A DNA stretch of 64,000 nucleotides from positions 186,001 through 250,000 of the forward strand of contig NZ_VTKZ01000001.1 of the NCBI RefSeq assembly GCF_020514115.1, in the 5' to 3' direction. Position 1 is the first letter of the stretch, and the number at the start of each line of letters is the position of its first letter. A program made the position numbers and the translations under genes. The notes below the pieces were generated by a model. The model had not been told where the DNA came from and made no database searches. It saw nothing but the letters and a program-made list of their open reading frames with translations. The DNA is from Synechococcus sp. MU1642. Lineage in GTDB: Bacteria > Cyanobacteriota > Cyanobacteriia > PCC-6307 > Cyanobiaceae. Shown here in pieces: positions 1 to 52,906 of the stretch.

Positions 1-44
1 CGATGCTGCATGCCTCGGTCTTGCAGCGGCCTGCTGGGCGACGT

Positions 45-330
45 TCAGGCACCTGGTTCGACAAGCTGTTTGCGCAGTTCAATCAACTCCTGGATGGGTT
101 CGGCCACCGAGGGTGAGTCAAGGGGTGTTGCGAACTCCGCGTTCTCGAGTCCTTCGTTGTTGGGATCCGATGGCCAAGTGGTGAAGTTCCTCTGGATTCA
201 ATGGACGCACTGCAGACATCAGTGCGTCATCAGTCCAATAGTCGGGACTGTCGAGAACTCCCAAGCGCAATGGGCAGGATGGGCCAGAAATCATGGCTTC
301 TCCCTTACGGATGTCTTCAGCATGAAGCAT
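45..330 (-). pseudogene. Small gene apparently split by a frameshift, unknown function
   Basis: Two overlapping minus-strand frames each look protein-like only in part. The frame starting at ATG 330 gives a sensible N-terminus (MISGPSCPLRLGVLDSP, then PLNPEELHH) but turns Arg-rich after about position 185. A second frame, open from 197 down to a TGA at 45-47, gives an acidic, ordinary-looking C-terminus (WPSDPNNEGLENAEFATPL, then AEPIQELIELRKQLVEPGA) but has no start. Joining them by one frameshift near 180-195 would give a protein of about 95 residues. No family recognised. It could instead be two unrelated shadows; the composition argument is the only evidence. Confidence 0.4.
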
Positions 331-777
331 CGCAATCCCGAAGTTTTTTGACCGACTGCTCCAGATTTAGTGTCTCCTTGGCAGCAGGATTCCCTGCGCT
401 AGGTGCAGTGCTTCTGTTGCCTGATCTGGCTCCTTTGAGATGTTCACCAAAGTCTTAAGTGAGTGTTGACATCCACTACATATGGTGTCTGGTGGGTATT
501 ATTAATTCATTGCATCAAAGAGTGGTGCAGATCGCCGGGTGATGGGGATTGCCTTGGCTATGGAAACCGCCCCAAGGATGGGGTGGTTTTTTGTCTGCAC
601 CGTACGATTTATACCCTTGGTGCCTTGTGGATCAAGCCCGCTGCGGCTGGATTAGGTCAGCTGTGGATCTGCACCTGTAATCCTTGCCCTGGCGAGGACC
701 AAGACGAAGGCAGAGCAAATTGCTTGCCAGAACACCGCGGTGATCAGGGCTAATCAGGAAGCGCTATGAGCATTTGT
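331..777. other. Sparse stretch; one strong terminator, no convincing gene
   Basis: No reading frame here has convincing protein character. A plus-strand frame at 463-753 is long but spans a strong terminator hairpin and looks like a chance frame. On the minus strand a short hydrophobic frame near 660-735 (a single putative membrane segment, about 27-30 residues from a GTG) is possible but lacks a clear ribosome binding site. The stretch 500-592 is a candidate small-RNA locus. Confidence 0.5.
566..592 (+). terminator. Rho-independent terminator
   Basis: An 8-bp stem (ACCGCCCC pairing with GGGGTGGT, one G-U) with loop AAGGAT is followed directly by a run of six T. No plausible protein gene ends upstream, so it may end a small RNA that starts near 505-515, where a TATTAT box lies at 498-503. 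Confidence 0.75.
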
Positions 778-1707
778 TCAGTGGCTTGGGTGCGATAGTG
801 AGTAACCCAGAAGGATGTAGGTTCTCGATAAATTCAGATTAGCGGCCAGATATAGAAGAAACTCTGCTCACTCCTGATCGATATTAATCACCACTTCTGT
901 CCCCGATTCTGTCGCCACAAAATAAGACAGAAATGCGGCGCAGAAGAAAAGAGGCCAGAAGTATCTTGGTATGAAAAAGTTGCTGCTGGCAATCAGATTT
1001 CCATCAAGAGAGTTTGTGCGTATCCATCGGATTGAAGGTCGCCACAGGACGAGCACCAGAAGTATGATCGAGACCTAGCAAAGATCGACGTCGAGGTGGT
1101 TCTGGAAGAACTCAAGGTTATGGAGTGTTGTCTGATTTTGGTCGTTTACCGCAGCGATGTTCTCTGGCCTTTTCCAGCCGAATAGGATTTGCCCATAGGC
1201 AACCTCCTCGAGGCCAATAATCAGCATGATTAAAGAAATGATCGCGTAAACCACTTAAGGCAGATGCATGGACAAGCGCTTGCGTAGATCTTTGGAGATG
1301 AGCTACGACATCCAGGCGGATGTGAAAAGAACTAGGGCTTGCAATTACTCCAGACTTCCTCCTTCGCCAAGCAGACGCTTGTAGCGACAAATGTCCTGAA
1401 CAGAAACTTTCAATAAAACAACGCAGCCCATGATGAATGATGCGAGGGCAATCATCAGGAAGGATCGTCGAGCTCGTGCTGAAGGGCTGTTTTCTGCCAG
1501 CAGTGTCGTTATGAATGCTGAGTTTCGAAAAATCCATCCTGCTGCAACCAAGATCAAGCCAGCGGCACCCAGTTGCAACTCAGGCCAAGGGGAAGCATCC
1601 AGCCAAAAAGCGCTGATGAATTTATAAAGAGAGACCCAGAGAACAACGACTCCAAACCACACAAAGACCTGGCCGCAGATGCTCTGCACCGTCTCCTGCC
1701 TCATCAA
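778..1707 (-). pseudogene. Decayed polytopic membrane protein gene with five in-frame stops
   Basis: Reading the single frame that starts at ATG 1707, about 310 codons remain protein-like to the final TGA at 778-780, but five stops interrupt it: TAA 1345-1347, TAG 1303-1305, TAA 1255-1257, TAG 1075-1077 and TGA 868-870. There is no frameshift. The first 120 residues carry three hydrophobic segments. The middle contains GLEEVAYGQILFGW and then NDQNQTTLHNLEFFQN, which matches a motif I know from cyanobacterial integral membrane proteins of unknown function (EE..xGQ..FG...P...N.Q...LHN). The distal part has further membrane segments (FIPRYFWPLFFCAAFLSYF). At least two stops sit where related proteins would be expected to have Trp. 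Either a dead gene, or only the 120-residue N-terminal part (1345-1707) is still made. Confidence 0.8.
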
Positions 1708-1914
1708 GCTCTCTGATCGGCTCTTTTCTGAGGACGGGTGACCCTCAAAGCCATGCGGTAGGGGCTAATGACGAAGCAGCCTTCTCATTCAGAGGAGGTT
1801 ATGACTCGATTTCTTTAATTTGCGCAGTGGGCATGAGGATTCTTATCCGGTCAAGCAGATACGTCTGAGGAACGACTTGGTCGGATCAGGCAGATCCATC
1901 TTGGGGTTGGGACT

Positions 1915-2061
1915 TTAACCGGCCAACCTGGCCTGCCGAATCGATTCAAAATCGATTCCCATAACCTTGGTTAGATAAAGGTATCCGCCCCAAGCGACAA
2001 CATTGAGGCCTAGGGCCCAGAGATAGATCGTTCGTCTGGCTTGGGTTGAGTCTTCGCGCAT
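1915..2061 (-). CDS. Small single-span membrane protein, 48 aa
   Basis: ATG at 2061 opens a 48-residue frame: a short charged N-terminus (MREDSTQARR), one hydrophobic segment (TIYLWALGLNVVAWGGYLYL), then a soluble tail ending QARLAG. It starts 3 nt after the stop of the preceding minus-strand small membrane gene, so the two probably form one transcript. No family recognised; function unknown, likely in a membrane. Confidence 0.6.
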   Translation of the reverse strand: MREDSTQARRTIYLWALGLNVVAWGGYLYLTKVMGIDFESIRQARLAG

Positions 2062-2064
2062 CGG

Positions 2065-2214
2065 TTATTTCCGGTTCAATAGACACCAGGCACCATAGAA
2101 GGCCAGGCCGAGCAAGATCCACGGAAAAATTGCGCGCAGCAGTGTTAATCCAATCAGGACGACCACAATTGTGATCGCAGATCGTTTCACCATGGCTTTG
2201 CTGCTGTCAGTCAT
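2065..2214 (-). CDS. Small membrane protein, 49 aa
   Basis: I place the start at the ATG giving MTDSSKAMVKRSAITIVVVL. An upstream in-frame extension to 2304 is possible but compositionally poorer. The protein has a basic N-terminal stretch and two closely spaced hydrophobic segments, ending in WCLLNRK. It is first in a two-gene minus-strand unit with the 48-residue membrane protein immediately downstream. Function not recognised. Confidence 0.6.
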   Translation of the reverse strand: MTDSSKAMVKRSAITIVVVLIGLTLLRAIFPWILLGLAFYGAWCLLNRK

Positions 2215-2385
2215 GTACTGCCAGCGTGGAATCAAGGTCATAACAACAACGATGCTGAACAGCGTTCTAGGGGACTTGGCTGAGATTGCCAACCTCCATC
2301 CCAAAGCGGTTTGTTCGCAGTTTGATGTGTTGGTTTGACGCCTACTAAGCCATTATCTTTGCCTGTGATTGATTAGTTCGTGGCT

Positions 2386-2574
2386 TTAGCAATCGTATTC
2401 TAGGTGAGACTTCTGCTCACGCTTGCCAAAATTGGCCTCTTTCATCTGTGATTCGTCGTAAGCCCAGTCGCTGTAGATTCTTGATTTTGGGAAGCTCCTA
2501 TTAAGACGAAGAGCAGTGATGCGTTGGCCAAGTAGATCGAACGACCATTTTGCTGCTGAAAGAACCTTGCCCAT
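2386..2574 (-). CDS. Hypothetical small soluble protein, about 62 aa
   Basis: The frame runs from ATG 2574 (preceded by AAAGG 4-5 nt upstream); an in-frame TTG at 2589 is an alternative start. The product is basic and rich in polar residues (SRIYSDWAYDESQMKEANFG) and ends EYDC. No domain seen. It lies between two small-gene clusters with no obvious partner. Confidence 0.45.
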   Translation of the reverse strand: MGKVLSAAKWSFDLLGQRITALRLNRSFPKSRIYSDWAYDESQMKEANFGKREQKSHLEYDC

Positions 2575-2660
2575 GATGCCTTTGTTCAACTCTTCTAAAG
2601 TGATAGCCCATGGATGTCAATTGAACATTGGTTCATATGCTCATTGAGGCTTGCTTTGAT

Positions 2661-2830
2661 TCAAGACCCCTCGACTGCATCATTGGTGTTTTGTTTCATG
2701 GCCTGTTGGCGTCGCCGTTGTGCTTCACAGTTCCGGCACTCCTGTTGATCCAATCCAAAGAAATTCAAAGGTTTGATCTCACCGCAGCCGCTGCATTGAC
2801 GTCCTTGTGCAGGGGGGCTTCAAAAGCCAT
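2661..2830 (-). pseudogene. Zinc-ribbon miniprotein, frameshifted in a C6 run
   Basis: ATG 2830 has a near-ideal ribosome binding site (AAGGAG, 8 nt upstream) but the frame MAFEAP... runs into nonsense. Adding one C to the C6 run (complement of 2812-2817) restores a 56-codon frame with two CxxC knuckles (CSGCGE and CRNCEAQRRR) and a basic, Gln-rich tail ending DAVEGS at the TGA 2661-2663. This is a compact zinc-ribbon design. It follows a second CxxC miniprotein by only 5 nt, so they were an operon. Either a real loss-of-function indel, slippage-based switching, or a base-call error in a homopolymer. Confidence 0.65.
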
Positions 2831-2835
2831 GGTGG

Positions 2836-2982
2836 TCACTCCTTGGTGTTACTCGGCGTTTGCTTGATCCGATCTGATAACGCCTGAGGGGACCCTAGTC
2901 TCCCCTGCTTGATGCACTGGGGGCAGTCGTTTCTCAGACTTGAGTGCATGTGACCGCAGTTCGCACAACAAATCAGTGCCAT
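2836..2982 (-). CDS. Zinc-ribbon miniprotein, 48 aa
   Basis: ATG 2982 opens a 48-residue frame with CANCGH near residue 6 and CPQC near residue 20, the spacing of a small zinc knuckle or rubredoxin-like ribbon, followed by a polar tail ending NTKE. Its last codons supply the Shine-Dalgarno sequence of the next miniprotein gene, implying translational coupling. Such ribbons bind nucleic acid or protein; the actual partner is unknown. Too short for most gene finders but very plausible. Confidence 0.65.
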   Translation of the reverse strand: MALICCANCGHMHSSLRNDCPQCIKQGRLGSPQALSDRIKQTPSNTKE

Positions 2983-3071
2983 GGCTGTCGTTGCTGATGC
3001 ACCACGCTGATTGTTCAGATCGCATCAGGCATCGGTGTTTGTCCCTAGTGATCCCCTCGTACTAGCGATGA

Positions 3072-3251
3072 TCAGGATTGATCAAAGATCTTTTGCAGGG
3101 TGGTTCTCTCGTTCTGGAGTGAATTGGCCCTCATGGGCTTGCCAAGCGGTCTTGGCTTCCGAGGTCGATTCAAAAAAACTTTACTGAGCCACCAGATCTG
3201 GAGCGCGACAAATGCGAGGGCGAGTAGTGCCAGTTCAGTTGCCCCCTGCAT
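3072..3251 (-). CDS. Small membrane protein with basic tail, 59 aa
   Basis: The ATG at 3251 overlaps the stop of the upstream small gene by one base (TAATG). The N-terminus holds one hydrophobic segment (LALLALAFVALQIWWL) followed by a very basic stretch (NRPRKPRPLGKP) and a polar tail ending IFDQS. This is an inside-positive, single-span layout. Function unknown. Confidence 0.6.
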   Translation of the reverse strand: MQGATELALLALAFVALQIWWLSKVFLNRPRKPRPLGKPMRANSLQNERTTLQKIFDQS

Positions 3252-3376
3252 TAGTAGTGCTTGCCGCGGTTGTCGATCGCATCTGTTTTAAAGCACTCCA
3301 ACTCTTCAGGGGTGTGCAACGGGGGTTTCTCCCGTTTGCTAGCCCATTTCAAAAACAGTTGCAGCAGTCGTTTCAT
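3251..3376 (-). CDS. Hypothetical basic miniprotein, 41 aa
   Basis: ATG 3376 opens MKRLLQLFLKWASKREKPPL, an amphipathic basic helix, then HTPEELECFKTDAI and a short tail ending GKHY. It is coupled by a one-base stop/start overlap to the 59-residue membrane protein. It faces away from the gene starting at 3500, so a divergent promoter region lies at 3377-3499. No family recognised. Confidence 0.55.
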   Translation of the reverse strand: MKRLLQLFLKWASKREKPPLHTPEELECFKTDAIDNRGKHY

Positions 3377-3499
3377 CCTTCAATTTTGCGCCATCACAGC
3401 CTTGTGCCATCAGGTCATGTCAATCCTGATTTCATTCTTTTCAGAATTATTTGATGCCATTGGCCTTAGGCTCGTTCTAAGAAAAACAGTTTGTTGCTG

Positions 3500-3715
3500 A
3501 TGACCTTTAAAGAGCTTGTGGCCAGTTTCAATCAACAAGAAACGACCTGGGAAGAGCTTTGTCTTGAAATCAGGTGTGAGAGCTGTTTTGCCTCGGTTTT
3601 TGATGAAGTTAACGAGCAAATGGGCTTGACTAGCGATGTGCTTGCCGGGCTGGCCGATGAATTTCCCAACCATTACAAGAGATATGCCAAGGAGAGAGGC
3701 CTCGATCAGCCTTGA
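3500..3715 (+). CDS. Hypothetical soluble protein, 71 aa
   Basis: I take the ATG giving MTFKELVASFNQQETTWEEL as start; an in-frame ATG 9 nt upstream is also possible. The product is acidic and helical looking, with CLEIRCESCFASVF in the middle and a tail HYKRYAKERGLDQP. Similar short proteins are common in marine picocyanobacteria, but I do not recognise a named family. Confidence 0.6.
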   Translation: MTFKELVASFNQQETTWEELCLEIRCESCFASVFDEVNEQMGLTSDVLAGLADEFPNHYKRYAKERGLDQP

Positions 3716-3839
3716 CGAAGAGGTGTGAGAGAGGCAGTAGGTCGTGACACCACCCACCAAATCAAGCAACCACGCCCGAAGAGGTCTCCCTCTCACCTCC
3801 CAACCATAGATCTGGCTCGAGTTTCGGTCAGCTCCGTCT

Positions 3840-4037
3840 TCAGTGAGAGGCTGCCAAGTTCGCTTTCGCTGCCTTCAGGGCTTCTTCGCAAGCCGCTCGG
3901 TCTTCGTTGTCGATGTCACCCTGACTGCCGTTCAACCGTGCCTCCAGGAATGCGATCTCATCAATCCAATAGGTCTTGTCTTTGTCTTGTTGATCTGTCA
4001 CGCGTCGAGAAAGGATCCAGTCCATCGCACCCTTCAT
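3840..4037 (-). CDS. Hypothetical helical protein, up to 65 aa
   Basis: The frame gives MDWILSRRVTDQQDKDKTYW then a charged helical region (EIAFLEARLNGSQGDIDNED, ACEEALKAAKANLAASH), likely a short coiled coil or helical hairpin. ATG at 4025 has AAGGG upstream at good spacing and may be the true start; ATG 4037 is the outermost. Function not recognised. Confidence 0.55.
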   Translation of the reverse strand: MKGAMDWILSRRVTDQQDKDKTYWIDEIAFLEARLNGSQGDIDNEDRAACEEALKAAKANLAASH

Positions 4038-4174
4038 AGAGGAAAGCTGCCCATGCGGCTGGCTCCCCTGTCTGGTTTGGTCATGATTTTGGGCTGGAGC
4101 ACAGAGAGGACGCAGAATGGGTTGATCTGAATAAGTAGTACTTCTCCATCGACGATTTGTCTCCAGTCACCCCC

Positions 4175-4342
4175 ATGACCGCCCTGATCATCGATGCAGA
4201 TGGGCGTTTGACCTACATGGGGGAGGACGGGTGCCGTCGTCAGATCGTTGGTGATCTTGAGCTCCTGGGCCGTCTGCGTCAGCTGCAAGCGAAGGACTGG
4301 GCTGATCGTGATGACGATGACGATGGCGATTTGCAGTCGTAG
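4175..4342 (+). CDS. Hypothetical protein with Asp-rich tail, 55 aa
   Basis: The start is taken at the ATG of MTALIIDADGRLTYMGEDGC. A beta-hairpin-like N-terminus is followed by a helix (LELLGRLRQLQAKDWADR) and an acidic tail of five consecutive Asp. An upstream in-frame ATG at 4157 is possible. Function unknown. Confidence 0.55.
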   Translation: MTALIIDADGRLTYMGEDGCRRQIVGDLELLGRLRQLQAKDWADRDDDDDGDLQS

Positions 4343-4467
4343 GTCGTCTCGACAGATCTCCCAAGATCAGCGAAAGGCTTCATCGTCCTTCGCTCCTGAA
4401 TTGAGCCTTTTGACCGATGGGCTGTTTTGCTCTCTTTCCTTATTGAGAGGCCAGCCATCTTGAAGTC

Positions 4468-4578
4468 ATGGACACAATGTTTTTCGTTGGCGTGAACGCG
4501 GGCCTGCTGATTCTGCTGATTTTTGGTCTCGTTTCAGCCAAAGCCAAGATCAAGGCTGGCCGTAAAGAGATCATCTGA
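4468..4578 (+). CDS. Single-span membrane miniprotein, 36 aa
   Basis: ATG 4468 gives MDTMFFVGVN, a hydrophobic span (AGLLILLIFGLVSA) and a basic C-terminus (KAKIKAGRKEII). The layout resembles low-mass photosystem or cytochrome b6f subunits, but the sequence is not one of those I know (PsbX, PsbT, PetL, PetM, PsaM). Too short for standard gene calling. Confidence 0.5.
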   Translation: MDTMFFVGVNAGLLILLIFGLVSAKAKIKAGRKEII

Positions 4579-4656
4579 GTCACGCGTTGCTCCAGGTGAC
4601 TCGTTGTTGATCACCTTGCACTGACCCAGCTGCGCAGGACCCACTGCTGCCAGAGC

Positions 4657-4683
4657 AAAAAAAACCACCCCTTGTGGGAGGTC
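4657..4683 (-). terminator. Rho-independent terminator (minus strand)
   Basis: On the minus strand a hairpin ACCTCCC / GGGTGGT with one internal mismatch and a short loop is followed by eight T. It lies about 165 nt downstream of the 30-residue gene at 4849-4941 and probably ends its transcript. Confidence 0.6.
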
Positions 4684-4848
4684 CTTTGGAGCTGTGGTGA
4701 GTTTGGTAGCTCTCATGTTATTGAGCCCTGCTATCTCAATCAATAAGCAGCATGCCGTGGCCTGACTGAGTAACTCGAGACCGAGCGTTCCTCTCGTTAC
4801 AAATCCTTGGTTGCCTTAACGATCGCGACTTGCTGAAGTAACGCTCTC

Positions 4849-4941
4849 TTAGGCCGTTGCTTTGACAACGAAAGTCATGACAAGGACTGCAATCGCGACG
4901 GTGCCGCTGAAGTAGGCAACGTTCGTGTGGAGTCCTTTCAT
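4849..4941 (-). CDS. Single-span membrane miniprotein, 30 aa
   Basis: ATG 4941 gives MKGLHTNVAYFSG, then a hydrophobic span (TVAIAVLVMTFVV) and KATA. Nearly the whole protein is one membrane helix with the N-terminus outside or inside undetermined. A terminator lies downstream. Not recognised as a known photosystem subunit. Confidence 0.5.
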   Translation of the reverse strand: MKGLHTNVAYFSGTVAIAVLVMTFVVKATA

Positions 4942-5121
4942 GCAGGTTCTGTCGGTGAAATCAGTCTGCAGGTTTTTCTCTGGCCAATGGCTAAGGCTTA
5001 ATGCCTAAATCTCCGCCAAAGAGAAGGGTCACCTTCCCTGATGACTAGACGACCTGCCCCGAGAGGTCGCATCAGTAGTAATTGAGGAGATTCACTTCTC
5101 CACTGCCAGTAGGGCGGGGCG

Positions 5122-5322
5122 ATGCTCCACTGTGGAGAGGAACTTTGGTCCGAGGACCCAGCGAGAGAACTCAACAACGAGATCTCGGAACTTCAAGCCC
5201 GAGTCGCCTTCCCCCACCACTGGAGCAGCGGAGAGCATGAGCAGCACATCGAAAAGCTCCGTCAGCTCACCTACGAAAAAAGCCGTCTGACCGATCGATC
5301 AGGTTCATCTTCCATGGAGTGA
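5122..5322 (+). CDS. Hypothetical charged protein, 66 aa
   Basis: The frame starts MLHCGEELWSEDPARELNNE and is helical and charged, with HEQHIEKLRQLTYEKSRL near the end. It stops at 5320-5322, inside a second protein-like frame offset by one base (5291-5578). The two could be one split gene or two overlapping genes; the helical charged content here is unlike the downstream DUF1651-like part, so I favour two genes. Confidence 0.45.
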   Translation: MLHCGEELWSEDPARELNNEISELQARVAFPHHWSSGEHEQHIEKLRQLTYEKSRLTDRSGSSSME

Positions 5323-5578
5323 ACTCATCACTGAAGAACTCTCCTACAAATCTGTTGGTGCTTGGCTTGCCAATGAGTCACAGCAGCTTTACTACCAATT
5401 CACCGCTCATCAGGATGGCTCTCAAGGCGAGTCGATCGTCATGCGCAGCTTCCATTGGCGACCACCTGACGACCCGATCCCTCAGGGGAGTCAACTGATG
5501 ACACGGCAAGAGGCGCTGGAGAAATGGAATGCACTCAAGTCAATGGGTTGGAGGAGATGCGCCGGTCCACTTCAGTAG
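5291..5578 (+). pseudogene. DUF1651-like protein without a start codon
   Basis: The frame open from 5291 to TAG 5576-5578 is protein-like from WSELITEELSYKSVGAWLAN to the end and carries SFHWRPPDDPIPQ, MTRQEALEKWNALKSMGW. This pattern (W...F..., basic TR..ALE.W..L...GW) is like the small DUF1651 proteins common in marine Synechococcus and Prochlorococcus. No ATG, GTG or TTG precedes the conserved part in frame; the first ATG is at 5441. It is offset +1 from the ORF that ends at 5322, so a one-base indel near 5300-5320 could have split it from its start. Confidence 0.5.
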
Positions 5579-5655
5579 GGCAGTGAACGAGTTGGCCCAG
5601 TCCGTATAAGCAGTTGGCAATTGGGGCAAAACCAGCGTTAGTCCAGAGTGCTGTC

Positions 5656-5880
5656 ATGAAACAGCCGAACACTCAGCGACTCCGGGCTCTGCGGCTGTCT
5701 GCACTCGCGAGGGACAACAAGGTTGTCAATGCCATTCGCACCTCGATCACTCGGGCCCCTGATGCTCTGGTTAAGGAGTTGATGGATGTTCATGGATGGC
5801 CTGCGCATGAAGCCCTCTGCGCCGTTCAGCAGCTTCAGCAAGATGTCCTCGATGACACGGCTGAACAGGCAACGGCATGA
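5656..5880 (+). CDS. Hypothetical protein, 74 aa
   Basis: Starts at the ATG of MKQPNTQRLRALRLSALARD. A basic N-terminus is followed by a helical region containing VKELMDVHGWPAHEALCAVQ and an Asp-rich end (DVLDDTAEQATA). A longer start at 5614 is possible but less likely. No family recognised. Confidence 0.5.
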   Translation: MKQPNTQRLRALRLSALARDNKVVNAIRTSITRAPDALVKELMDVHGWPAHEALCAVQQLQQDVLDDTAEQATA

Positions 5881-6820
5881 AAGAAATCGTTGGCGACGGC
5901 CAAGATTTGGTTGGGTGAGTGGATTCCCGGGTTGGCGCTTGTCCTCGTTTGAAGGGAGGGCTCACTGGCATTCGATCCACGCCCGTTTCGTGTATCTAGG
6001 TTGCGACCGTAGTCCTTTCGAGGGACAAGGGATTTGACGGCGTAGAGAAGACAGGCCGCTTCATCATTGCCTCGAGGAGACGGGCCGAAGCTGCATTGCA
6101 TGAGACATCTCCAGCGAGGTGAACGCCCCTGCAAGAACAGCAAGGCGTTTTAAGGAACTGCCGATTTCTCTCAAAGAGGAAGGCCGCCCTCCCCGATGGA
6201 AAGACGGCCTAGCTCGCTCGTTTATGCATTGCAGTCGACCTAGTCAGTACGTGTTGCCTTTGGGGATCTCCTTGGCAATGGGACTGAAAGAGAGAGGCCG
6301 AAGCGTCTGGCTAGTGGCAACCCTGGGGCCATTTTGTCCAGGTGTGAAGCGGGACTCCTACGGGGCACCTAGACGGACGGTGCAGAGGAGTGTCGACTGA
6401 TCAGACGCACATCAGTGTCGTCACAGACGAAGTGCTCACGGTTGGGTTGAAAAGTTGGAGCAGGGGCCAGAAAAGTCAGGCTGCTTCTGCGATTTGCTCA
6501 GGTGGAGTGTCGGCCGTCATGGGCTCCTCCGATCTCGATACACACACTCTCGGCAGCCGTGGAGCGCCCGGCAATCAGTTGTCGTGCTCATTGCCTTCTG
6601 GAGCCAATCGGCCGATTATGGGAATGGCGTGCAAAGCCCGAAGTAGATCAGGGCTGACGAAGCGAGGAAATCTCCAGACTCCAATCCATGCCGAACAAGG
6701 TCCGTGGGACCAACCGCAGTAGGTAGGGACCTAGCTTGAAGTGCGGACACAAAACCACATGCTCTGTAATCGCAGCAAAGAGTTCTGACTGGTACACCTT
6801 GACCAGATTTGGGCCAAGCC
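5881..6820. other. About 940 bases with no convincing gene
   Basis: All open frames in this stretch are low-quality (skewed composition, no ribosome binding site). Two inverted repeats stand out: the stem-loop at 6070-6119 and AGGCCG...CGGCCT around 6181-6212, neither followed by a T run. The stretch may be decayed coding sequence or hold untranslated RNA. Confidence 0.5.
6070..6119. repeat. Long stem-loop, possible structured RNA
   Basis: CCTCG and GGAGA at 6070-6080 pair with TCTCC and CGAGG at 6108-6119, a 10-bp stem with a small asymmetric bulge around a 27-base loop. There is no T tract, so it is not a simple terminator. Confidence 0.3.
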
Positions 6821-7060
6821 ATGGGCGACCTGAGCAAGGAGCAGGAACAAGCCATCGCTCGGTCAACGATGTATCTGGTCGCAGCCCTAATCACCATCCT
6901 GATGATGCTTATCGCAGGACTGTTCCTCTCTGCGGAACTCGAACAGCAAGCTCTGCAGAAAGCCGAGACAGCACAGCAGCTCGCACGTCAAACGGCGATC
7001 GCTCCTCAAGCCCAACGGCCGTGGACTCTGTGGACAAGGCACGCTGATCAGGAAACCTAG
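6821..7060 (+). CDS. Single-span membrane protein, 79 aa
   Basis: ATG 6821 gives MGDLSKEQEQAIARS, then one hydrophobic span (YLVAALITILMMLIAGLFLS) and a long helical, Ala/Gln-rich tail (ELEQQALQKAETAQQLARQT). Probably an anchored helical protein; function unknown. It lies upstream of the sugar kinase in the same direction but 115 nt away. Confidence 0.6.
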   Translation: MGDLSKEQEQAIARSTMYLVAALITILMMLIAGLFLSAELEQQALQKAETAQQLARQTAIAPQAQRPWTLWTRHADQET

Positions 7061-7175
7061 GGATGCAGCGGTAACACCAAATTTCACTGCTTAAATCGAG
7101 CTCCAGCCCTCTTGGAGGACCTCTGTTGGGCCGGATGACCAGTGAGGATGGAACTCCAGTCGTCTGGGGCTGCCG

Positions 7176-8003
7176 TTGTCTTCCGTCTCATCTCTGCCGC
7201 CCCTGCGTTTGGCTGTGGTTGGCCATGTCGAGTGGATGGAATTTCTGGCGGTGGATCAGCTGCCCCATCCCGGGACCATTGGTCACGCCCTGCGAACCTT
7301 GCAGGAACCTGCTGGTGGCGGGTCCGTCGTTGCTGTGCAGATGGCACGGCTGCAGCAGCAACCTGTCCATTTCTTTACGGCTATAGGCCGCGATTCGGTC
7401 GGCGAAGCCTGCGTCAAGCGGCTTGAAGACCTGGGCCTTGTGGTTCATGTCGCCTGGAGAGAGGCACCAACCCGGCGTGGCATCAGCTTGGTTGATGGGG
7501 AGGGGGACCGAGCAATCACCGTGATCGGCGAACGGCTGACCCCATCACTGGACGATGACTTGCCTTGGGAGGCCCTCGGCGAATGCGACGGTCTCTTCGT
7601 CACGGCAGCTGATGTGCCTTTATTGAAAGCCTGTCGCGCTGCAGCAGTCATGGCCGCGACTCCGCGGGTGCGTTTGCCTGTGCTTCAGAAGGCCGGTGTG
7701 TCCATCGATGCCCTGATTGGCAGCGGACTTGATCCTGGTGAGATGGTGGATCTGGATCAGTTGAACCCAGCTCCCCACACCATGATTCGCACGGAGGGTG
7801 CCGCAGGAGGGCTCAGTCTTCCGGGAGGGCGTTATGAACCCGCACCCCTCCCTGGGCCCATCGTTGAAAGCTATGGCTGCGGTGACAGCTTTGCGGCGGG
7901 GGTGGTCACCGGCTTAGCTGCGCGTTGGACCTTGGCGAACGCCATTGCCTTGGGTGCCCAGTGTGGTGCCGCCTGTGCGACGCGCTTTGGACCTTACGGC
8001 TAG
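7176..8003 (+). CDS. PfkB/ribokinase-family sugar kinase, 275 aa
   Basis: Phosphorylates a sugar or nucleoside with ATP in the cytoplasm; the exact substrate cannot be told. The N-terminal part has the family Gly motif (AGGGSVVAVQMARL) near residue 47 and GRDSVGEACVKRLEDLG near 72. Signature 2 (ESYGCGDSFAAGVVTGLAA) lies near residue 243, its Asp being the catalytic base. Length fits the family, slightly short. The frame has no ATG at its start: TTG 7176 is the first possible start after the in-frame stop at 7143, with GTG codons about 13 residues in as alternatives. It stands alone between two sparse regions. Confidence 0.85.
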   Translation: MSSVSSLPPLRLAVVGHVEWMEFLAVDQLPHPGTIGHALRTLQEPAGGGSVVAVQMARLQQQPVHFFTAIGRDSVGEACVKRLEDLGLVVHVAWREAPTRRGISLVDGEGDRAITVIGERLTPSLDDDLPWEALGECDGLFVTAADVPLLKACRAAAVMAATPRVRLPVLQKAGVSIDALIGSGLDPGEMVDLDQLNPAPHTMIRTEGAAGGLSLPGGRYEPAPLPGPIVESYGCGDSFAAGVVTGLAARWTLANAIALGAQCGAACATRFGPYG

Positions 8004-8195
8004 ATCATCAGAAACCTGACGGGTTTGAACGTCAAATTCGAAGAGGCTTTGGCGCACGGCAGGAGTGCCAGCTTGCGGAGATGCTTAGAACCATCTTTGT
8101 CTATGGCGCCGACCTAGCAGAAGGAAATGGTCTGGGCTCCTGAGGTGGGCTTAAGCTTTTTTTCTACGACCGAAGAAATCTCATAGGGTGCCGCA
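8004..8195. other. Short gap downstream of the sugar kinase
   Basis: No gene seen. A T7 run at 8158-8165 follows the weak palindrome AAGCTT and could serve as a terminator of the kinase transcript. Confidence 0.3.
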
Positions 8196-8339
8196 TTGGG
8201 AATCCATCCAGCTGATCAACCGCTGCTTGAGCAGCAAGACGAGAACAGCGTTGGGGCTTGGCAGATGCGCAGATTAAAAGAAGCCGAAAACCCTGTGGCG
8301 TTCCCCGACGATGGAGCTGGACATAAGGAAGCTGCCTGA
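8196..8339 (+). CDS. Possible small protein, 47 aa
   Basis: A TTG start with AGGG about 7 nt upstream opens a protein-like frame (IHPADQPLLEQQDENSVGAW, MRRLKEAENPVAFPDDG) ending HKEAA. Composition is good for a soluble protein but nothing supports it otherwise. Confidence 0.35.
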   Translation: MGIHPADQPLLEQQDENSVGAWQMRRLKEAENPVAFPDDGAGHKEAA

Positions 8340-8360
8340 TGATGATCCACTAGAGAATCT

Positions 8361-8522
8361 TCAAATGCGACGTGCGCGGCGACTTTGAGCTGAATCCAAA
8401 GGAGACTCCCCTGAGACCGTGGTTATTAGGTGTAATGGGCAAGCGAGAGCACGAAAAGGAGTGTGATTACCTTCAGCGACAAATGAGCCGATTGGGCATC
8501 CGCCTGAAAGATGGATTGTCAT
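8361..8522 (-). CDS. Small Cys/His protein with ALACPL motif, 53 aa
   Basis: ATG 8522 gives MTIHLSGGCPIGSFVAEGNH, then TPFRALACPLHL and a basic tail. The core EGxHxPFxALACPL recurs in a second small minus-strand gene at 45223-45393, so the two are paralogues of a family I do not recognise. Conservation over about 25 residues of both Cys and His suggests a structural or metal-binding role; this is inference. Confidence 0.5.
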   Translation of the reverse strand: MTIHLSGGCPIGSFVAEGNHTPFRALACPLHLITTVSGESPLDSAQSRRARRI

Positions 8523-8948
8523 AACTAACGTGAACTTCCGACGTTCTACGAATGTCAAGTTCCCAGTCACCGATCGGCTTCCCGTACTTCACCTGATTCA
8601 ACGCCACAGGTGTTAGGTCACACAGTCGGCATCATCACTGCCTCAGAGACTGATCTGGATCATTCGCGAATTCAAGGTCCGCCCAGCACTGACCAATAGG
8701 AATGCAGCTCTGCTTCCCTGCGGCACAGCCCCAGCCCCATTGGGGCTGGGGAGTTCACCTCAGCGCACCCAGTCTTTGGGAATGGTCAAGGAGTAAGGGC
8801 AGGTTGGTGGTTTGCCCTTTACCCCTTGCGTGACTTTCGAGTCAAAACGAAAGCTCGATCTACAAGTCACTATTAATTGATAGCTACCGAATAGGCATCT
8901 GGCAGGACTCCCCTTTTTCAATAGAATGAGTCATGTTGCATTGGTAAA
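8523..8948. other. Intergenic stretch with a perfect GC hairpin
   Basis: No gene seen in about 425 bases. The stretch holds a 10-bp perfect hairpin at 8729-8751 and becomes AT-rich towards the small membrane gene at 8949. Confidence 0.5.
8729..8751. repeat. Perfect 10-bp GC hairpin
   Basis: CCCCAGCCCC and its exact complement are separated by the loop ATT. No T run follows on either strand, so it is not a typical terminator; it could be an RNA stabiliser or a pause site. Confidence 0.7.
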
Positions 8949-9197
8949 TTGAATTCCGGAACAATACGGCGGCTTATTCTCACGCTTGCGACTGGATACC
9001 TGACGGTGTTTGGTGTAAGGCAAATTCCTTATGAATTTGACAATGAATGGCTTGTCCTTGTTCCAGCATTGATTCTTGTCTATGCGTTGACTGTTTGGAT
9101 AGAAGGCAAAGTGTTCAGAGATGAATCGCTAGCAGTTCCTGCTGCTAAGCCTGCTAAAAAAAGAGCTGAACCCTCAGTCAAAGGCTTCAAGTCATAG
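8949..9197 (+). CDS. Small two-span membrane protein, paralogue A, 82 aa
   Basis: A TTG start is the first available; the protein has RRLILTLATGYLTVFGVRQI, then EWLVLVPALILVYALTVWIE and a basic Lys/Ala tail. Its layout (RR, span, IPYE...W, span with P and Y, WI..K) is shared with the next gene, indicating tandem duplication and divergence. AT content is higher than in the flanking core genes, which suggests recent acquisition. Function unknown. Confidence 0.6.
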   Translation: MNSGTIRRLILTLATGYLTVFGVRQIPYEFDNEWLVLVPALILVYALTVWIEGKVFRDESLAVPAAKPAKKRAEPSVKGFKS

Positions 9198-9301
9198 AGC
9201 TAGTACCCTCTTCAGTAAGGGGTATCCGTAAAAGAATCAAGGCAGCAGGAGAGAGGGAAATTAATTGAGCTTGCTAGGGTGAGCATTCACGTTGTCGATG
9301 G

Positions 9302-9505
9302 ATGCTCAGCAAGTTTCCAGTTATCCGAAGAGTGTCTATCTATATGGCGCTTAGTTATTCAGGCTTAGTGCTTGTGAATAATATTGGCTATCAGCTGGAG
9401 AATATGTGGATTATCTATGCGCCAATGTTTATTAGTGTTTATTTCTTTTCGAGATGGATTGATAGCAAGTTGGCCAAGAAAGGCAATGAAGGTGGCTCTT
9501 CATAA
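9302..9505 (+). CDS. Small two-span membrane protein, paralogue B, 67 aa
   Basis: ATG 9302 gives MLSKFPVIRRVSIYMALSYS, a span, then IGYQLENMWIIYAPMFISVY and WIDSKLAKKGNEGGSS. Positions of RR, the first span, I.Y, W, the second span with P and Y, and WI..K align with paralogue A 105 nt upstream. It is AT-rich compared with neighbours. Function unknown; possibly a lipid- or photosystem-associated membrane miniprotein. Confidence 0.65.
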   Translation: MLSKFPVIRRVSIYMALSYSGLVLVNNIGYQLENMWIIYAPMFISVYFFSRWIDSKLAKKGNEGGSS

Positions 9506-9528
9506 ATAAGTCTTGCCTCTATGAGCCT

Positions 9529-9612
9529 TCACTCAATCGGCCAGTGCTTCCACTCAGCACCTTCAGGGATCTCAGGTGCGACGGTCAGATCCTTCAGCTC
9601 CTCCCATGACAC
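9529..9612 (-). CDS. Possible C-terminal fragment or mini-ORF, 27 aa or more
   Basis: The minus frame ending at TGA 9529-9531 reads WEELKDLTVAPEIP then EGAEWKHWPIE, clearly protein-like, but upstream it has only a GTG at 9612 and a stop about 20 codons further up. It may be a very small protein or the end of a decayed gene. It overlaps the start of the plus-strand ORF at 9606. Confidence 0.3.
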   Translation of the reverse strand: MSWEELKDLTVAPEIPEGAEWKHWPIE

Positions 9613-9779
9613 AGGCCACTGGGGCAGGTGACAGGGCGCTTGACCCCTTCAAGTGTTGGCTGTCTGATGGGGTGCACGACCTTGGAGAGCCAGTGGTGGT
9701 GGAGCTGCGGCTGGAATGGCTTGATCTGTTTCTGATGGTGGAAGAGCGTGAGGACGCTGTGCCTATGTCAAGGCAATAA
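9606..9779 (+). CDS. Hypothetical acidic protein, 57 aa
   Basis: The ATG of MTQATGAGDRALDPF is taken as start. The rest (CWLSDGVHDLGEPVVVELRL, EWLDLFLMVEEREDAV) looks like an ordinary soluble protein with a hydrophobic helix and acidic surface. It runs into the tRNA-Pro terminator region from the opposite side. Not recognised. Confidence 0.45.
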   Translation: MTQATGAGDRALDPFKCWLSDGVHDLGEPVVVELRLEWLDLFLMVEEREDAVPMSRQ

Positions 9780-9802
9780 AAAACCCCAGTCAGTGACTGA
9801 GG
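9778..9802 (-). terminator. Terminator of the tRNA-Pro transcript
   Basis: On the minus strand a 9-bp palindromic stem with one G-U pair (CCTCAGTCA / TGACTGGGG) is followed by six T. It sits 37 nt past the 3' end of tRNA-Pro. Confidence 0.75.
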
Positions 9803-9838
9803 TCTCATGTATCAGCTGGGGACTGACTGTTGATCGCA

Positions 9839-9912
9839 TCGGGGAGACAGGATTCGAACCTGCGGCATCTTGCTCCCAAAGCAAGCGCGCTACCAAACTG
9901 CGCCACTCCCCG
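9839..9912 (-). tRNA. tRNA-Pro (UGG)
   Basis: The minus strand folds into a complete cloverleaf: acceptor CGGGGAG pairing with CTCCCCG, anticodon stem CTTGC/GCAAG with loop TTTGGGA (anticodon TGG), and a T-arm containing GGTTCGAATCC. Discriminator A; CCA is not encoded. A Rho-independent terminator follows. Confidence 0.95.
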
Positions 9913-9925
9913 GCGCACTTAGAGA

Positions 9926-11077
9926 TTAGCGGTCAGCGTGCAGCTGCTCAGCGAGGTTGACGCCGCTGAGGATCGCTCCCTCTGCTCTGCCGAAACCAGG
10001 CCCTTCGATCCAGTCGCCACAGAACCCAACGCCGCTGGTGGGGCACCACTGCAGCTCAGGTGGCAGAGGGTTGTTGAGGGGCCGAGACGCGCCCCAGCGC
10101 ATCACCCCCAATGGCGTCGCCTGTTCCAGTGCTGCTGAAACAACCGGCAAGGCCTGCACCAATTCGGGCAACAGGTTCAGCAGGCGTTGTTGCTGCTGGG
10201 CGAGCAGGCGGCTCTGGTTTTGGGGCGTGATTGCTTCTCCGGAATCCAAACCATGCACCACTAGCCCCCAACGCCCATCACTTTGTGGCTGCAACACGAG
10301 CCGTTCCACCTTCCAGCGTGCTTTGGCGGCGTCGTTCAACCAGATCTGAGCCGGAAGCTTTTCACCGTTGAGCGCGAGCTCGCCCAGATCCACCATCAGG
10401 TTCCAGCGCACCTCGGTTTGGCTGTGTTGCAGCAGGCTCAGTGCCGTATCGAGGCCGACGTCTACCCCCTCTTTAACGGCTGATCGCAGGGGGACGTCGT
10501 TCCAGGCCAGCATCTTCAGCGAGCGGGGATGGGCCAGCAAGGTTCCACTGAGCACAAGGCGCTTGGCCCTGAGGCACCAGCTTCGATCCTCGTTCTGCAC
10601 CAGCCAATGATCCTGGCGTCGCTCCAGCCAGCGCACGCGGGTCTCGAATTGACGACTCAAGTGTATTGAGCCAGCAGCATCGAGCAGCGCCTCGCAGATG
10701 CTGGCCATGCAGGGAATCCCATGCCACCAGCCCCCGTCTGGACAGGCTGCAGGCCAGTTGGCTGGCGATAAACTTGCTTGGGCGTCGAGCGAAAGCACAG
10801 CTCGATTGTCACGGTGAAGAACACCCGCTGAGCGCAACGGCGCAAGCAGTTCCTCCATGCTCTCCGGCAAGGAACCACTGAGTGAAAAGCCCGGTGCTCC
10901 ATGGTTGAGCAGCCAGCTGCTTTGTTCTCGTCTTCTGCGGGTGGCTGCACGGCCTCCCGGCCCCCGTCCAGCCTCAATCAAAGCAATGGTGAGATCCGAT
11001 CCCAGCTGCTGGAGCCGGCTAATCAGGCTGCAACCAGAGAGCCCTGCACCGATAACGGCGAGATCAACCTCAGTCAC
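9926..11077 (-). CDS. FAD-dependent oxidoreductase, renalase-like, 383 aa
   Basis: A flavoprotein of the NAD(P)/FAD amine-oxidase-like group. The N-terminal dinucleotide-binding motif is AVIGAGLSGCSLISRL near residue 8, followed by the family's GRGPGGRAATRR segment near residue 38. The C-terminus carries the FAD-contact motif CGDWIEGPGFGRAEGAILSG. Length matches renalase-like cyanobacterial proteins, whose substrate is not known. The ATG 11077 start is good. It ends 14 nt from tRNA-Pro on the same strand. Confidence 0.85.
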   Translation of the reverse strand: MTEVDLAVIGAGLSGCSLISRLQQLGSDLTIALIEAGRGPGGRAATRRRREQSSWLLNHGAPGFSLSGSLPESMEELLAPLRSAGVLHRDNRAVLSLDAQASLSPANWPAACPDGGWWHGIPCMASICEALLDAAGSIHLSRQFETRVRWLERRQDHWLVQNEDRSWCLRAKRLVLSGTLLAHPRSLKMLAWNDVPLRSAVKEGVDVGLDTALSLLQHSQTEVRWNLMVDLGELALNGEKLPAQIWLNDAAKARWKVERLVLQPQSDGRWGLVVHGLDSGEAITPQNQSRLLAQQQQRLLNLLPELVQALPVVSAALEQATPLGVMRWGASRPLNNPLPPELQWCPTSGVGFCGDWIEGPGFGRAEGAILSGVNLAEQLHADR

Positions 11078-11101
11078 GACCGCTGACGTCTCCGCCGTCG
11101 A

Positions 11102-11194
11102 TCACATCCAGTAGCGCTCTGCGGCAACTCGAGAAAACAAACCACCCAGCAATGCCAGAAGAATCGTGACGCCAAAGAACGTGAAATACGCCAT
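11102..11194 (-). CDS. Single-span membrane miniprotein, 30 aa
   Basis: ATG 11194 gives MAYFTFFGVTILLALLGGLF then SRVAAERYWM. The size and one-helix design are those of low-mass thylakoid subunits, but the sequence is not one I can name. It ends 24 nt upstream of the oxidoreductase start on the same strand, so may be cotranscribed with it. Confidence 0.5.
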   Translation of the reverse strand: MAYFTFFGVTILLALLGGLFSRVAAERYWM

Positions 11195-11288
11195 CTAAAC
11201 TGTTGGCCTGGTCAGGGATTCACGGTTTTCTAACAGCCGTTGGGTTGTCGGCTCAATTGAGTCACGAGACGAAATCAAACCGCTGGTA

Positions 11289-11360
11289 TGGGTCGCCTGA
11301 GATTCGAACTCAGGACCAGCCGGTTAAAAGCCGGATGCTCTACCGCTGAGCTAGCGACCC
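11289..11360 (-). tRNA. tRNA-Lys (UUU)
   Basis: Minus-strand cloverleaf of 72 nt: acceptor GGGTCGC/GCGACCC, D-arm with AGCTCAGCGGTAGAGC, anticodon loop CTTTTAA (anticodon TTT), T-arm with GAGTTCGAATCTC. Discriminator A, CCA not encoded. Confidence 0.95.
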
Positions 11361-11438
11361 GTGCCCGCTTGGGCATGCCATTTCGGCACTAATGAGGTTA
11401 TCACTCAGGTCGCCGGTGAGACTGGTGGCTTCTGAACC

Positions 11439-11951
11439 ATGGCCATGACTGGCTCCAAGCCCTGGCCCGATCCTCAAATTGATGCTGACGCCTGGGTAGC
11501 TGAATCCGCCGTCGTGATTGGCAATGTGCTGATGGCAGCAGGCAGCAGCCTCTGGCCCACAGCTGTTGCGCGCGGCGATCTCGAGCAGATCAGCATCGGA
11601 GCGGGCAGCAATGTTCAAGACGGTGCCGTGCTCCATGGCGATCCGGGGCAGCCGGTGCGACTCGGTGCCGACGTCACTGTTGGCCATCGGGCCGTGATCC
11701 ATAGCGCCACGCTCGAGGATGGATGCTTGGTGGGAATTGGTGCCATCGTTCTCAATGGCGTAACCGTCGGTGCCGGGGCCTTGGTGGCTGCTGGTTCTGT
11801 TGTCACCAAGGATGTGCCTCCCGGAACCCTGGTGGTGGGCGCGCCTGCGGTGGTGAAGCGGGAGTTATCGCCTGAGGCGATCGACGAGCAGCGCTGCCAC
11901 GCCCAGCGCTACGCGCGATTGGCGGCATCCCACGCCCAGATCAGGCCTTGA
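11439..11951 (+). CDS. Gamma-carbonic-anhydrase-like hexapeptide-repeat protein, 170 aa
   Basis: Left-handed beta-helix trimer of the YrdA/CcmM-like group, possibly a zinc carbonic anhydrase. Hexapeptide repeats run from about residue 20 to 135 (SAVVIGNVLMAAGSS, IGAGSNVQDGAVLHGD). The metal-ligand pattern is present: His in VLHGD and the pair in VGHRAVIHSA. Length equals the stand-alone family members. No catalytic Gln/Arg mapping was attempted, so activity is inferred. It is monocistronic and faces tRNA-Lys divergently. Confidence 0.85.
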   Translation: MAMTGSKPWPDPQIDADAWVAESAVVIGNVLMAAGSSLWPTAVARGDLEQISIGAGSNVQDGAVLHGDPGQPVRLGADVTVGHRAVIHSATLEDGCLVGIGAIVLNGVTVGAGALVAAGSVVTKDVPPGTLVVGAPAVVKRELSPEAIDEQRCHAQRYARLAASHAQIRP

Positions 11952-12054
11952 ATTCAACCCCCTGATTGCTGCGAATTCGATCAGCTTTCAGGGAAGGTCG
12001 TGGGATCAACGGAGAAGTCCGTAAGATCGGCCACACTGATTTCCGTTTTCAAGA

Positions 12055-22602: not shown

Positions 22603-23244
22603 ATGCATCTCCAGGTTGTTGGTTTGAACCTGCGCAGACACCGTCACTGGGTGATTGGAGATGTGCATGGCTGCTATCAGCCTTTATGCCATCTGCTCGC
22701 CAGCCTGCCGCCTAACGACCATCTGGTCTTCTGCGGGGATGTGATCAACCGTGGTGTGGCTATTCCCGCAACGATGAATCTGGTCTGGGATCTGATCCAG
22801 GCAGGCCGTGCTACCTGGCTGCGCGGGAACCATGAGCAAGAACTCATTGAGGCTCTTGAATCCCAGGACGGCTTGAGTCAGCACGCCACCTATGCCCAGT
22901 TGGGCAATAGCAACGCTCGCCAATGGTTGCCGCGACTGCAACAGCTTCCGCTCGTTTATCGCGGTGAGGGTTGGTGCGCGACCCATGCCGGGTTCGACGC
23001 GGCGGGCCAACCGGATCTCTCCATTCGTGATCACTTCTGGGAGGCCTATGACGGTCGTTTTGGCCTGGTTGTTGTGGGCCACACGCCCCGTCCTCAGGTT
23101 GAGCGCCTCGGAGCGATCGTTCTGATCGACACCGGTGCGGTCTATGGCGGTTGTTTGTCGGCCTACTGCCCGGAAACGGATGCGGTCGTTCAGGTTGAAG
23201 GAGCTGCAACTGACGCCGTGCTGGCTGGAGTTGGCCCTTGCTGA
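22603..23244 (+). CDS. Metallophosphoesterase, serine/threonine-phosphatase type, 213 aa
   Basis: Dimetal phosphatase with the classic motif set: GDVHGCYQPL, FCGDVINRG, LRGNHEQELIE, later THAGFD and VVGHTPRP. This matches PrpA/ApaH-like bacterial enzymes acting on phosphoproteins or dinucleotides; the substrate is open. ATG 22603 is used, with a TTG one codon upstream. Its end overlaps recC by 7 nt. Confidence 0.87.
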   Translation: MHLQVVGLNLRRHRHWVIGDVHGCYQPLCHLLASLPPNDHLVFCGDVINRGVAIPATMNLVWDLIQAGRATWLRGNHEQELIEALESQDGLSQHATYAQLGNSNARQWLPRLQQLPLVYRGEGWCATHAGFDAAGQPDLSIRDHFWEAYDGRFGLVVVGHTPRPQVERLGAIVLIDTGAVYGGCLSAYCPETDAVVQVEGAATDAVLAGVGPC

Positions 23245-26200: not shown

Positions 26201-26483
26201 AGCCGAAGACCAGCTGCAGCAGCTGGTGCGGCTGGCGCAACAGGGGCTGGAGCGCTGCTGGCCGGTCCCCCCGAAGAGCGGCTGGCAGATGGTGGTCAAA
26301 GACCGGCGCAAACCGGGGACGGGGAAGCAGGACTTCCGCAAGACCTGGCAGGACGAAGGGGCAACCCCAGTGATGCAGCTCTGCTTCGGTACGGAGATCG
26401 CTGCAGAGCAACTGATGGATCAGGCCGGATTCCAGGAGGCGTGTCAGCTGCTGTACGGCCCACTTCTGGCGCAGCTGCGTTAA
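23238..26483 (+). CDS. recC: RecC, exodeoxyribonuclease V gamma chain, 1081 aa
   Basis: Subunit of RecBCD that splits strands and reads Chi. N-terminal helicase-like domain begins with LTVYRSNRAEFLARLLSRQL and PTSRWLGEQLATVNGISSLV; the nuclease-like inactive C-terminal part ends QLR. Typical RecC features such as ALEPMRAIPHKVVVLMGLDS and DFPRPSRRPGFHLLE are clear. Length fits. Start is TTG 23238, overlapping the phosphoesterase gene. It ends face to face with the small minus gene, stops overlapping. Confidence 0.93.
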   Translation: MLTVYRSNRAEFLARLLSRQLIEQQPGPLEMVEVMVNTWPTSRWLGEQLATVNGISSLVRFPFPGSRLRQLVRQVLHLPAQEDDPWRAGQLVWAVLELLPELLEQPVAQPLQVWLTQREGTASGLTRDRWQLARAIADAMDDYALYRPDQLDQWKRPRPDDDWQPVLWRLLAQRLPRAPFGLQVREAVDRLRGGDVDPALLPDRLRLFGISALAPVQVDLIQALSGLLEVEIYLLTPCPDLWQRCGSRRASLGDDWLVPPDGGWLAEAPRLEAVLGRMGAEFQQLLEGSGEAQLGERREGDLFAGSLQIAAAEERQPTLLDQLQQQLVDAESISELNRSSDDQSLLFQAAPGPWREVQLVRDRILQWLAADPDLAPRDVLVMTPQIERYAPLLSSVFNDTAAIGVDLPWRLTDRSQQSSPGLSMAMFTLLELAATRFTATGLERLLANPALQGQQGLTAEEAVLITQTLQSSGFRWGLDAIERGGDEVHSLRWCLDRWLLGLVLPVEPGLAPAGAAPFQQELDPERLVRWWTLLDRLARTLDRLRQPRPCHGWVKVLQSLLHELFAGGGAWADESQSWAAALEEWRLRAHDCPLDLDAAVALEVLQEALSVDSGRFGHRSGALTISALEPMRAIPHKVVVLMGLDSADFPRPSRRPGFHLLEQQRRLGDPCSSDQDRYVLLEALMSARRHLLISWCGRLERTGEPQPSAVPVEQWLAVLQEQLQWAGASTEGLLITPAANPLSRENFRPKAPLSCDRRQLEARRCLDRAPVSAQDAQGLALASLWQQDMIDDEVEGRDGDDLALSPEALLAWMQQPQKAWLQARGLRPGEGIEAVEDLETLELVGLQRYLLLNHELEEQFILGAAPDWKASLAGQGVLPAGAGADLEQEELQQRWQALQRQLASLGPCRREVPVLAGLPMPLLYAGDTQVVVQPGMLTAAAVMRGWLQHLLLCAEGLAPGAGSAVVARSTRVAGAEVHLRWTALPTVEAEDQLQQLVRLAQQGLERCWPVPPKSGWQMVVKDRRKPGTGKQDFRKTWQDEGATPVMQLCFGTEIAAEQLMDQAGFQEACQLLYGPLLAQLR

Positions 26484-26692
26484 TCGAACAGCTCGTCGAG
26501 CATTTCGCGCATGCGTTCGTTGGAAATCACCGCGGGTTCGCCTACCTGACGGCGAAAGAAGTAGGCCCGATGTTCTTGGTTGATGCTTTCAACTGCGGCA
26601 GCCTTGCGCACCAGCAGCTGGGCCAATTTTTGACGACGTTCGTGGGACACAACAGGCAGGTGGCTTCCAACAACGTGCTGGCCTGATGGCAC
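26480..26692 (-). CDS. Conserved hypothetical helical protein, 70 aa
   Basis: I take the GTG 26692 start (PSGQHVVGSHLPVVSHERRQ). Helical product with KLAQLLVRKAAAVESINQEH and RAYFFRRQVGEPAVISNERM, ending MLDELFD. The stop overlaps the recC stop (TTAA). A longer in-frame start at 26824 exists but runs through a terminator hairpin at 26752-26781, which could attenuate it. Confidence 0.65.
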   Translation of the reverse strand: MPSGQHVVGSHLPVVSHERRQKLAQLLVRKAAAVESINQEHRAYFFRRQVGEPAVISNERMREMLDELFD

Positions 26693-26751
26693 GGCAACAC
26701 CGCTAGCCCCTGTTCTCTCAAGGGTTGGGTTGCATCCGTTCACAAGCCCAT

Positions 26752-26781
26752 AAAAAAAGCGAGGGTTCTTCAGGTCCTCGC
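26752..26781 (-). terminator. Rho-independent terminator, minus strand
   Basis: GCGAGG / CCTCGC stem of 6 bp with an 11-base loop, followed on the minus strand by seven T. Nothing protein-coding on the minus strand lies upstream except 70 bases next to recB, so it ends a short RNA or acts as an attenuator of the small gene downstream. Confidence 0.7.
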
Positions 26782-26895
26782 TCAGGTCGTCTTCTGTTCT
26801 GGGGTGTGACTGCACCCAGACCATTCCGCAACTATTACTAGCTGCTTCATAGAAGTTAACACTGTTTCAAGGGCTTAGTTAACCAGACTCCATCT

Positions 26896-50366: not shown

Positions 50367-52906
<2,540 letters not shown>

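Follow-up and report, generated by a model that had tools for sequence, protein, structure and literature searches.

A membrane-protein frame with five in-frame stop codons in Synechococcus sp. MU1642 is very probably an ordinary unitary pseudogene

Synechococcus sp. MU1642 carries a frame for a membrane protein that is cut by five stop codons, on the minus strand of the 64,000-nucleotide stretch of DNA that was analysed (the window). We conclude that this frame, which extends from 778 to 1772, is almost certainly an ordinary unitary pseudogene that has decayed neutrally. The conclusion is based on intact orthologues, neutral change on this genome's own branch, a start codon that has been lost, and a stop codon that is common to this genome and a relative with a frameshifted copy. 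On the same grounds, a dead gene is preferred over readthrough or recoding, as a preliminary description of the DNA had judged. Confidence in the gene being dead is independent of the date of its death.

Results

The five in-frame stop codons are real and cut the minus-strand frame 1707 to 778 exactly where they had been placed (Table 1). The read-through frame matched the intact frame of genome G022 over its full length (84% identity, E 0.0), and therefore it is not a chance frame. The codons at the five sites were compared, as had been proposed, and were found to be sense codons in the relatives, with the exception of a stop codon at 1303 in G028; the copies of G015 and G033 have Trp at this site. 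Two of the sites are indeed Trp sites, namely 1303 and 868, but the preliminary description had named the contexts E*LQA and E*AEF, and the former (1345) turned out to be a Tyr site. The five stop-making changes comprised two G-to-A, two T-to-A, and one C-to-A.

The minus-strand TGA at 778-780 aligned with the normal stop of the intact copies. The start of the gene does not lie at 1707 but further upstream, at 1770-1772. In ten aligned relatives the ancestral start, 22 codons upstream of the TTG chosen in the preliminary description, is GTG in eight cases and ATG and TTG in one case each, and the frames that begin there encode 331 aa in four of five copies and 355 aa in the other (L002, L004, L008, L010, L063). 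In this genome and three of the ten relatives an AGAAGG motif precedes it, and the other relatives have looser purine-rich variants there. The exact position of the 1-base gap that accompanies the loss of this start differed between two alignments. The TAG at 1765-1767 sits at the deletion and was left out of the lesion count, so that no sixth stop is reported.

Table 1. Features of the pseudogene and of DUF2079 genes next to other family members; positions refer to the window unless a locus is named
Feature	Position	Strand	Basis or remark
Pseudogene of a multi-spanning membrane protein of about 331 aa, former start triplet to normal stop (very probable)	778..1772	-	Homology to the intact frames of G022, G024, G008 and G030; neutral own-branch change
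Lost start codon, 1-base deletion at 1768-1771	1768..1772	-	Triplet 1770-1772 is GTC; AGAAGG motif still just upstream
In-frame TAA, specific to this genome	1345..1347	-	Tyr in 9 of 9 relatives with sequence there
In-frame TAG, common to this genome and G028	1303..1305	-	Trp in 8 of 9 relatives with sequence there, G028 being the exception
In-frame TAA, specific to this genome	1255..1257	-	Relatives: Ser 6 of 9, Ala 2 of 9, Gly 1 of 9
In-frame TAG, specific to this genome	1075..1077	-	Leu in 8 of 8 relatives with sequence there
In-frame TGA, specific to this genome	868..870	-	Trp in 8 of 8 relatives with sequence there
Residual 120-codon open stretch, TTG or ATG start	1345..1707	-	8 own-branch changes, 6 of them missense
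DUF2079 gene after a family member, this genome (G000:C11)	L129:1961-3613
DUF2079 gene after a family member, Prochlorococcus MIT 0701	L064:7234-8871

The claim that only substitutions and no frameshift had occurred holds within 778-1707, where no indel was found against the intact G022 frame, but not for the whole gene with its deletion at the start. Between 778 and 1704, 71 substitutions and no indel were counted against G022, and 83 substitutions and one indel against G028. The values for 360-777 were 47 substitutions and three indels (G022) and 32 substitutions and three indels (G028), and the whole 3.4-kb comparison with G022 yielded 264 substitutions and six indels, after removal of an end gap from seven events. 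For the 41 substitutions of this genome's own branch, about one indel would be expected at the 3.4-kb ratio and two or three at the 360-777 ratio. Thus, no indel inside the interval and one at the start codon is not clearly unusual.

Selection was analysed on the basis of own-branch changes, i.e. sites at which this genome departs from a state common to G022 and G028, and the neutral expectation was obtained by placing the same changes at random. The 41 changes in the pseudogene frame were 11 synonymous, 26 missense, and 4 nonsense, compared with a neutral expectation of 11.7, 27.0, and 2.3, respectively, so that the ratio of nonsynonymous to synonymous changes was 1.09 of the neutral value. 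On the same branch, a control gene at 50367-52904, which we take to be the housekeeping gene clpC, had 70 synonymous, 3 missense, and no nonsense changes, and a second control gene at 23238-26483 had 41, 28, and 0, with 22.1 synonymous changes expected. With only 41 changes, weak constraint on the frame is possible. The spectrum of the 41 changes (A>G 9, G>A 8, C>T 7, G>T 4, T>A 4, C>A 3, C>G 3, T>G 2, T>C 1) gave no sign of the biased G-to-A mutation that had been proposed, and no excess of G>A is evident.

A stricter count, which additionally required agreement with outgroups, had yielded 8 synonymous, 21 missense, and 6 nonsense changes against 10.0, 22.9, and 2.1 expected (p 0.016). This apparent excess of stops was dropped because two of the six were single steps in twice-changed codons that are not stops here, and the count was replaced because the outgroup condition disfavours synonymous sites.

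Stop codon readthrough or recoding could in principle yield a full-length protein, and the frame from 1707 to 778 has indeed kept its phase and clear homology. However, from the first stop onward the own-branch changes (9 synonymous, 20 missense, 4 nonsense) were very close to the neutral expectation (9.2, 21.7, 2.1), revealing no purifying selection downstream of the stops. Furthermore, the stop codons are of three types, relatives have sense codons in their place, four of the five are specific to this genome and the fifth is common to the frameshifted G028 copy, and the conserved start codon has been lost. A search for suppressor tRNAs within the window revealed two ordinary tRNAs only. We therefore give hardly any credence to readthrough or recoding.

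The same very low standing applies to false stops created by sequencing or assembly errors. Many annotated bacterial pseudogenes are artefacts of assembly, as is stated in one publication (PMC11017572), but the stop at 1303 is also present in the G028 assembly, and not a single stop was found among the 73 own-branch changes at 50367-52904 or the 69 at 23238-26483.

The 120-codon stretch upstream of 1345 might alternatively still encode a working shortened protein. It is open from 1707 to 1345, and it changed less than the remaining frame, with 8 changes at 357 sites before 1345 and 33 at 567 sites after it (Fisher p 0.013, post hoc). However, the 8 changes comprised 2 synonymous, 6 missense, and no nonsense changes, the stretch no longer has the native start codon, 12 of the 16 columns that are invariant in the family alignment lie past the stop, and the G028 copy has a 1-base insertion in the same part. 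A functional short protein is thus very improbable, even if marginally less so than readthrough.

The wider group provided evidence for past selection. Pairwise dN/dS values were 0.08-0.20 among the copies other than those of this genome, G028, and G004, a set that contains the broken G002 copy and in which several dS values are near or above saturation. Excluded were L048, L049, L050, and L065, for which the neighbouring DUF2079 frame had been taken, and L063, which yielded no frame in the second set. The values were 0.63 for this genome and G022, 0.59 for this genome and G028, 0.47 for G022 and G028, and 0.31 for G004 and G022; all four are below 1, which fits a divergence that arose in part before the loss. 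The branch of G024 showed some sign of past selection (9 synonymous, 5 missense, p 0.009), and past selection was also partly visible in the broken copies of G002 (10 synonymous, 8 missense, 1 stop, p 0.027) and G004 (31 synonymous, 48 missense, 2 stops, p 0.020). The G028 branch (16 synonymous, 24 missense, p 0.16) and the G022 branch (11 synonymous, 17 missense, p 0.13, a count that takes in the stem of this genome and G028) were indistinguishable from neutral; the intact G022 copy may therefore itself be under relaxed constraint. Together, these results indicate that selection acted on the gene in the wider group, whereas no maintenance of it is visible in this genome.

Among 34 genomes of the genus, a DNA search detected the locus, or at least some of its flanking sequence, in 13, including this one, and the following counts refer to these 13, the remaining 21 lying outside them. 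Four genomes (G022, G024, G008, G030) have intact, full-length, stop-free frames, one copy (G027) is open up to the end of its contig, six copies are broken (this genome, G028, G002, G004, G015, G033), and two genomes have no gene. The latter two are G013 and G023, in which the flanks are 76 and 180 bases apart, and tblastn between the adjoining flanks gave no significant match to the gene. Besides the 1303 stop, the G028 copy contains two 1-base indels, one a deletion and the other an insertion. The lesions are one insertion and one stop in G002, frameshifts and two stops in G004, one stop in G033, where frames that look transposase-like by eye (L009, L014) also interrupt the gene, and several stops and frame changes, seen in a tblastn comparison only, in G015. 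The assemblies of G015 and G033 consist of about 100 and 60 contigs, respectively, and the lesions there are less certain. No two of G002, G004, and G033 have a lesion in common, nor does any of them have one in common with this genome, and five lesion sets look independent. At the protein level, 25 of the 34 genomes of the genus were matched, many via paralogues only, and in an order-wide sample of 399 genomes there were 100 with a match.

Three further observations were made around the locus. A stretch of about 90 bases at window positions 600-688 matches even the genomes without the gene (G013 91%, G023 81%), and no Rfam family matched it. Short open frames on the minus strand flank the pseudogene at 118-330 and 2065-2304; similar frames occur close to the orthologous loci (L008, L010), and they may encode conserved small proteins. 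Lastly, a copy with 75% identity to this picocyanobacterial gene lies on the L063 contig (JAAXJB010000057.1), which is titled Rubripirellula and is therefore probably a binning contaminant.

The gene had been described as recently dead, a view that is weakened by the phylogenetic results. This genome and G028 grouped together in a tree based on two further regions with a total of about 9.8 kb (0.999), in the locus tree (0.933), in the tree of the locus plus flanks (0.999; 31 supporting sites versus 16 and 15), and in the tree of the gene at 50367-52904 (0.950). Because the two also have the 1303 stop in common, the gene probably died before their copies split, and the pseudogene is probably not very recent. 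At the locus, the simplest account is that a single nonsense change preceded the split of the two copies, which then decayed separately. Recombination nearby leaves doubt: in the first half of 23238-30504 this genome clusters with G022 (1.000), in the second half with G028 (1.000), and the whole region has 61 sites common to this genome and G022 versus 58 common to this genome and G028. Because the two halves group this genome differently, recombination between close relatives has evidently shuffled this neighbourhood. The common stop could thus also stem from transfer by recombination or from repeated mutation instead of a single death.

The ancestral protein is hydrophobic. An alignment of 25 sequences, including orthologues of the Prochlorococcus sp. 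MIT 0701 copy, contained 16 invariant columns, among them Y131, E137, E142, E189, Q195, N210, Q212, H218, N219, E301, and E304. The block GLEEVAYGQ, which had been highlighted as conserved, is itself altered: most orthologues have GLEE(I/L/V)AWGQ, with Trp at the position of Tyr in G022, G024, G028, G008, and G030, and L063 departs from this with GLEVTACGQ. The family had no match in Pfam and NCBIfam at curated cut-offs, nor in phage records at E 1e-5, and the only match among solved structures was at E 0.8. A structure model of four sequences was too poor for fold comparison (mean pLDDT 44.5). The EE motif and the conserved N and H residues in a membrane protein presumably recall glutamic intramembrane proteases of the CPBP/CAAX type, a weak lead; the CPBP/CAAX Pfam profile matched none of three orthologues, two paralogues, and the read-through frame.

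Open copies of the family are a paralogue in this genome (L129:974-1957), 35% identical to the G022 protein, and a gene of Prochlorococcus sp. MIT 0701 (L064:6013-7008). Both have the invariant family residues in common with the protein of the pseudogene, and both directly precede a DUF2079 gene (Table 1), perhaps as a conserved pair; the MIT 0701 copy is also near a PMT_2 gene. These neighbours hint at work on surface glycans. Unlike these copies, the pseudogene lies in a neighbourhood (1-12000) with no listed reading frame of more than 383 aa, and an Rfam search of the same interval detected two tRNAs only. The idea that the gene was lost because the paralogue made it redundant was unsupported, as G028 and G004 are broken and yet no paralogue match is listed for them.

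Discussion

We propose that the ancestral gene encoded a membrane protein under purifying selection and would have been inactivated before this copy parted from that of G028, perhaps via the nonsense change at 1303, if the lesion order that we infer is correct. Later drift would have added four more stops and the loss of the start codon here, and in G028 one deletion and one insertion, each of 1 base. The product is presumably absent, and its dispensability is the presumed cause of the loss.

A single genus contains five apparently independent lesion sets and two genomes without the gene, although purifying selection otherwise acts on the protein, and this raises the idea that the loss was repeatedly selected and not merely tolerated. 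We regard this as unlikely. If loss was selected, the protein might help to make a surface glycan that is exploited by phages or grazers, an idea suggested by the two family members beside DUF2079 genes. In any case, repeated loss within one genus provides a modest lead on a conserved family that is nameless in Pfam and NCBIfam at curated cut-offs.

Neutral decay of a unitary pseudogene makes this locus a clean control, which illustrates that plain neutral decay can produce a frame full of stops yet free of internal indels, and that a start codon lesion can hide just outside the frame that is read. Intact orthologues in close relatives, inactivating lesions, and lost purifying selection, which characterise unitary pseudogenes, were all found here. 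The locus differs from usual unitary pseudogenes in having five stops with a single indel, a number that is not clearly unusual for 41 substitutions. It resembles bacterial unitary pseudogenes in its orthologous position, its nonsense and start codon lesions, its neutral pattern of change, and its intact relatives.
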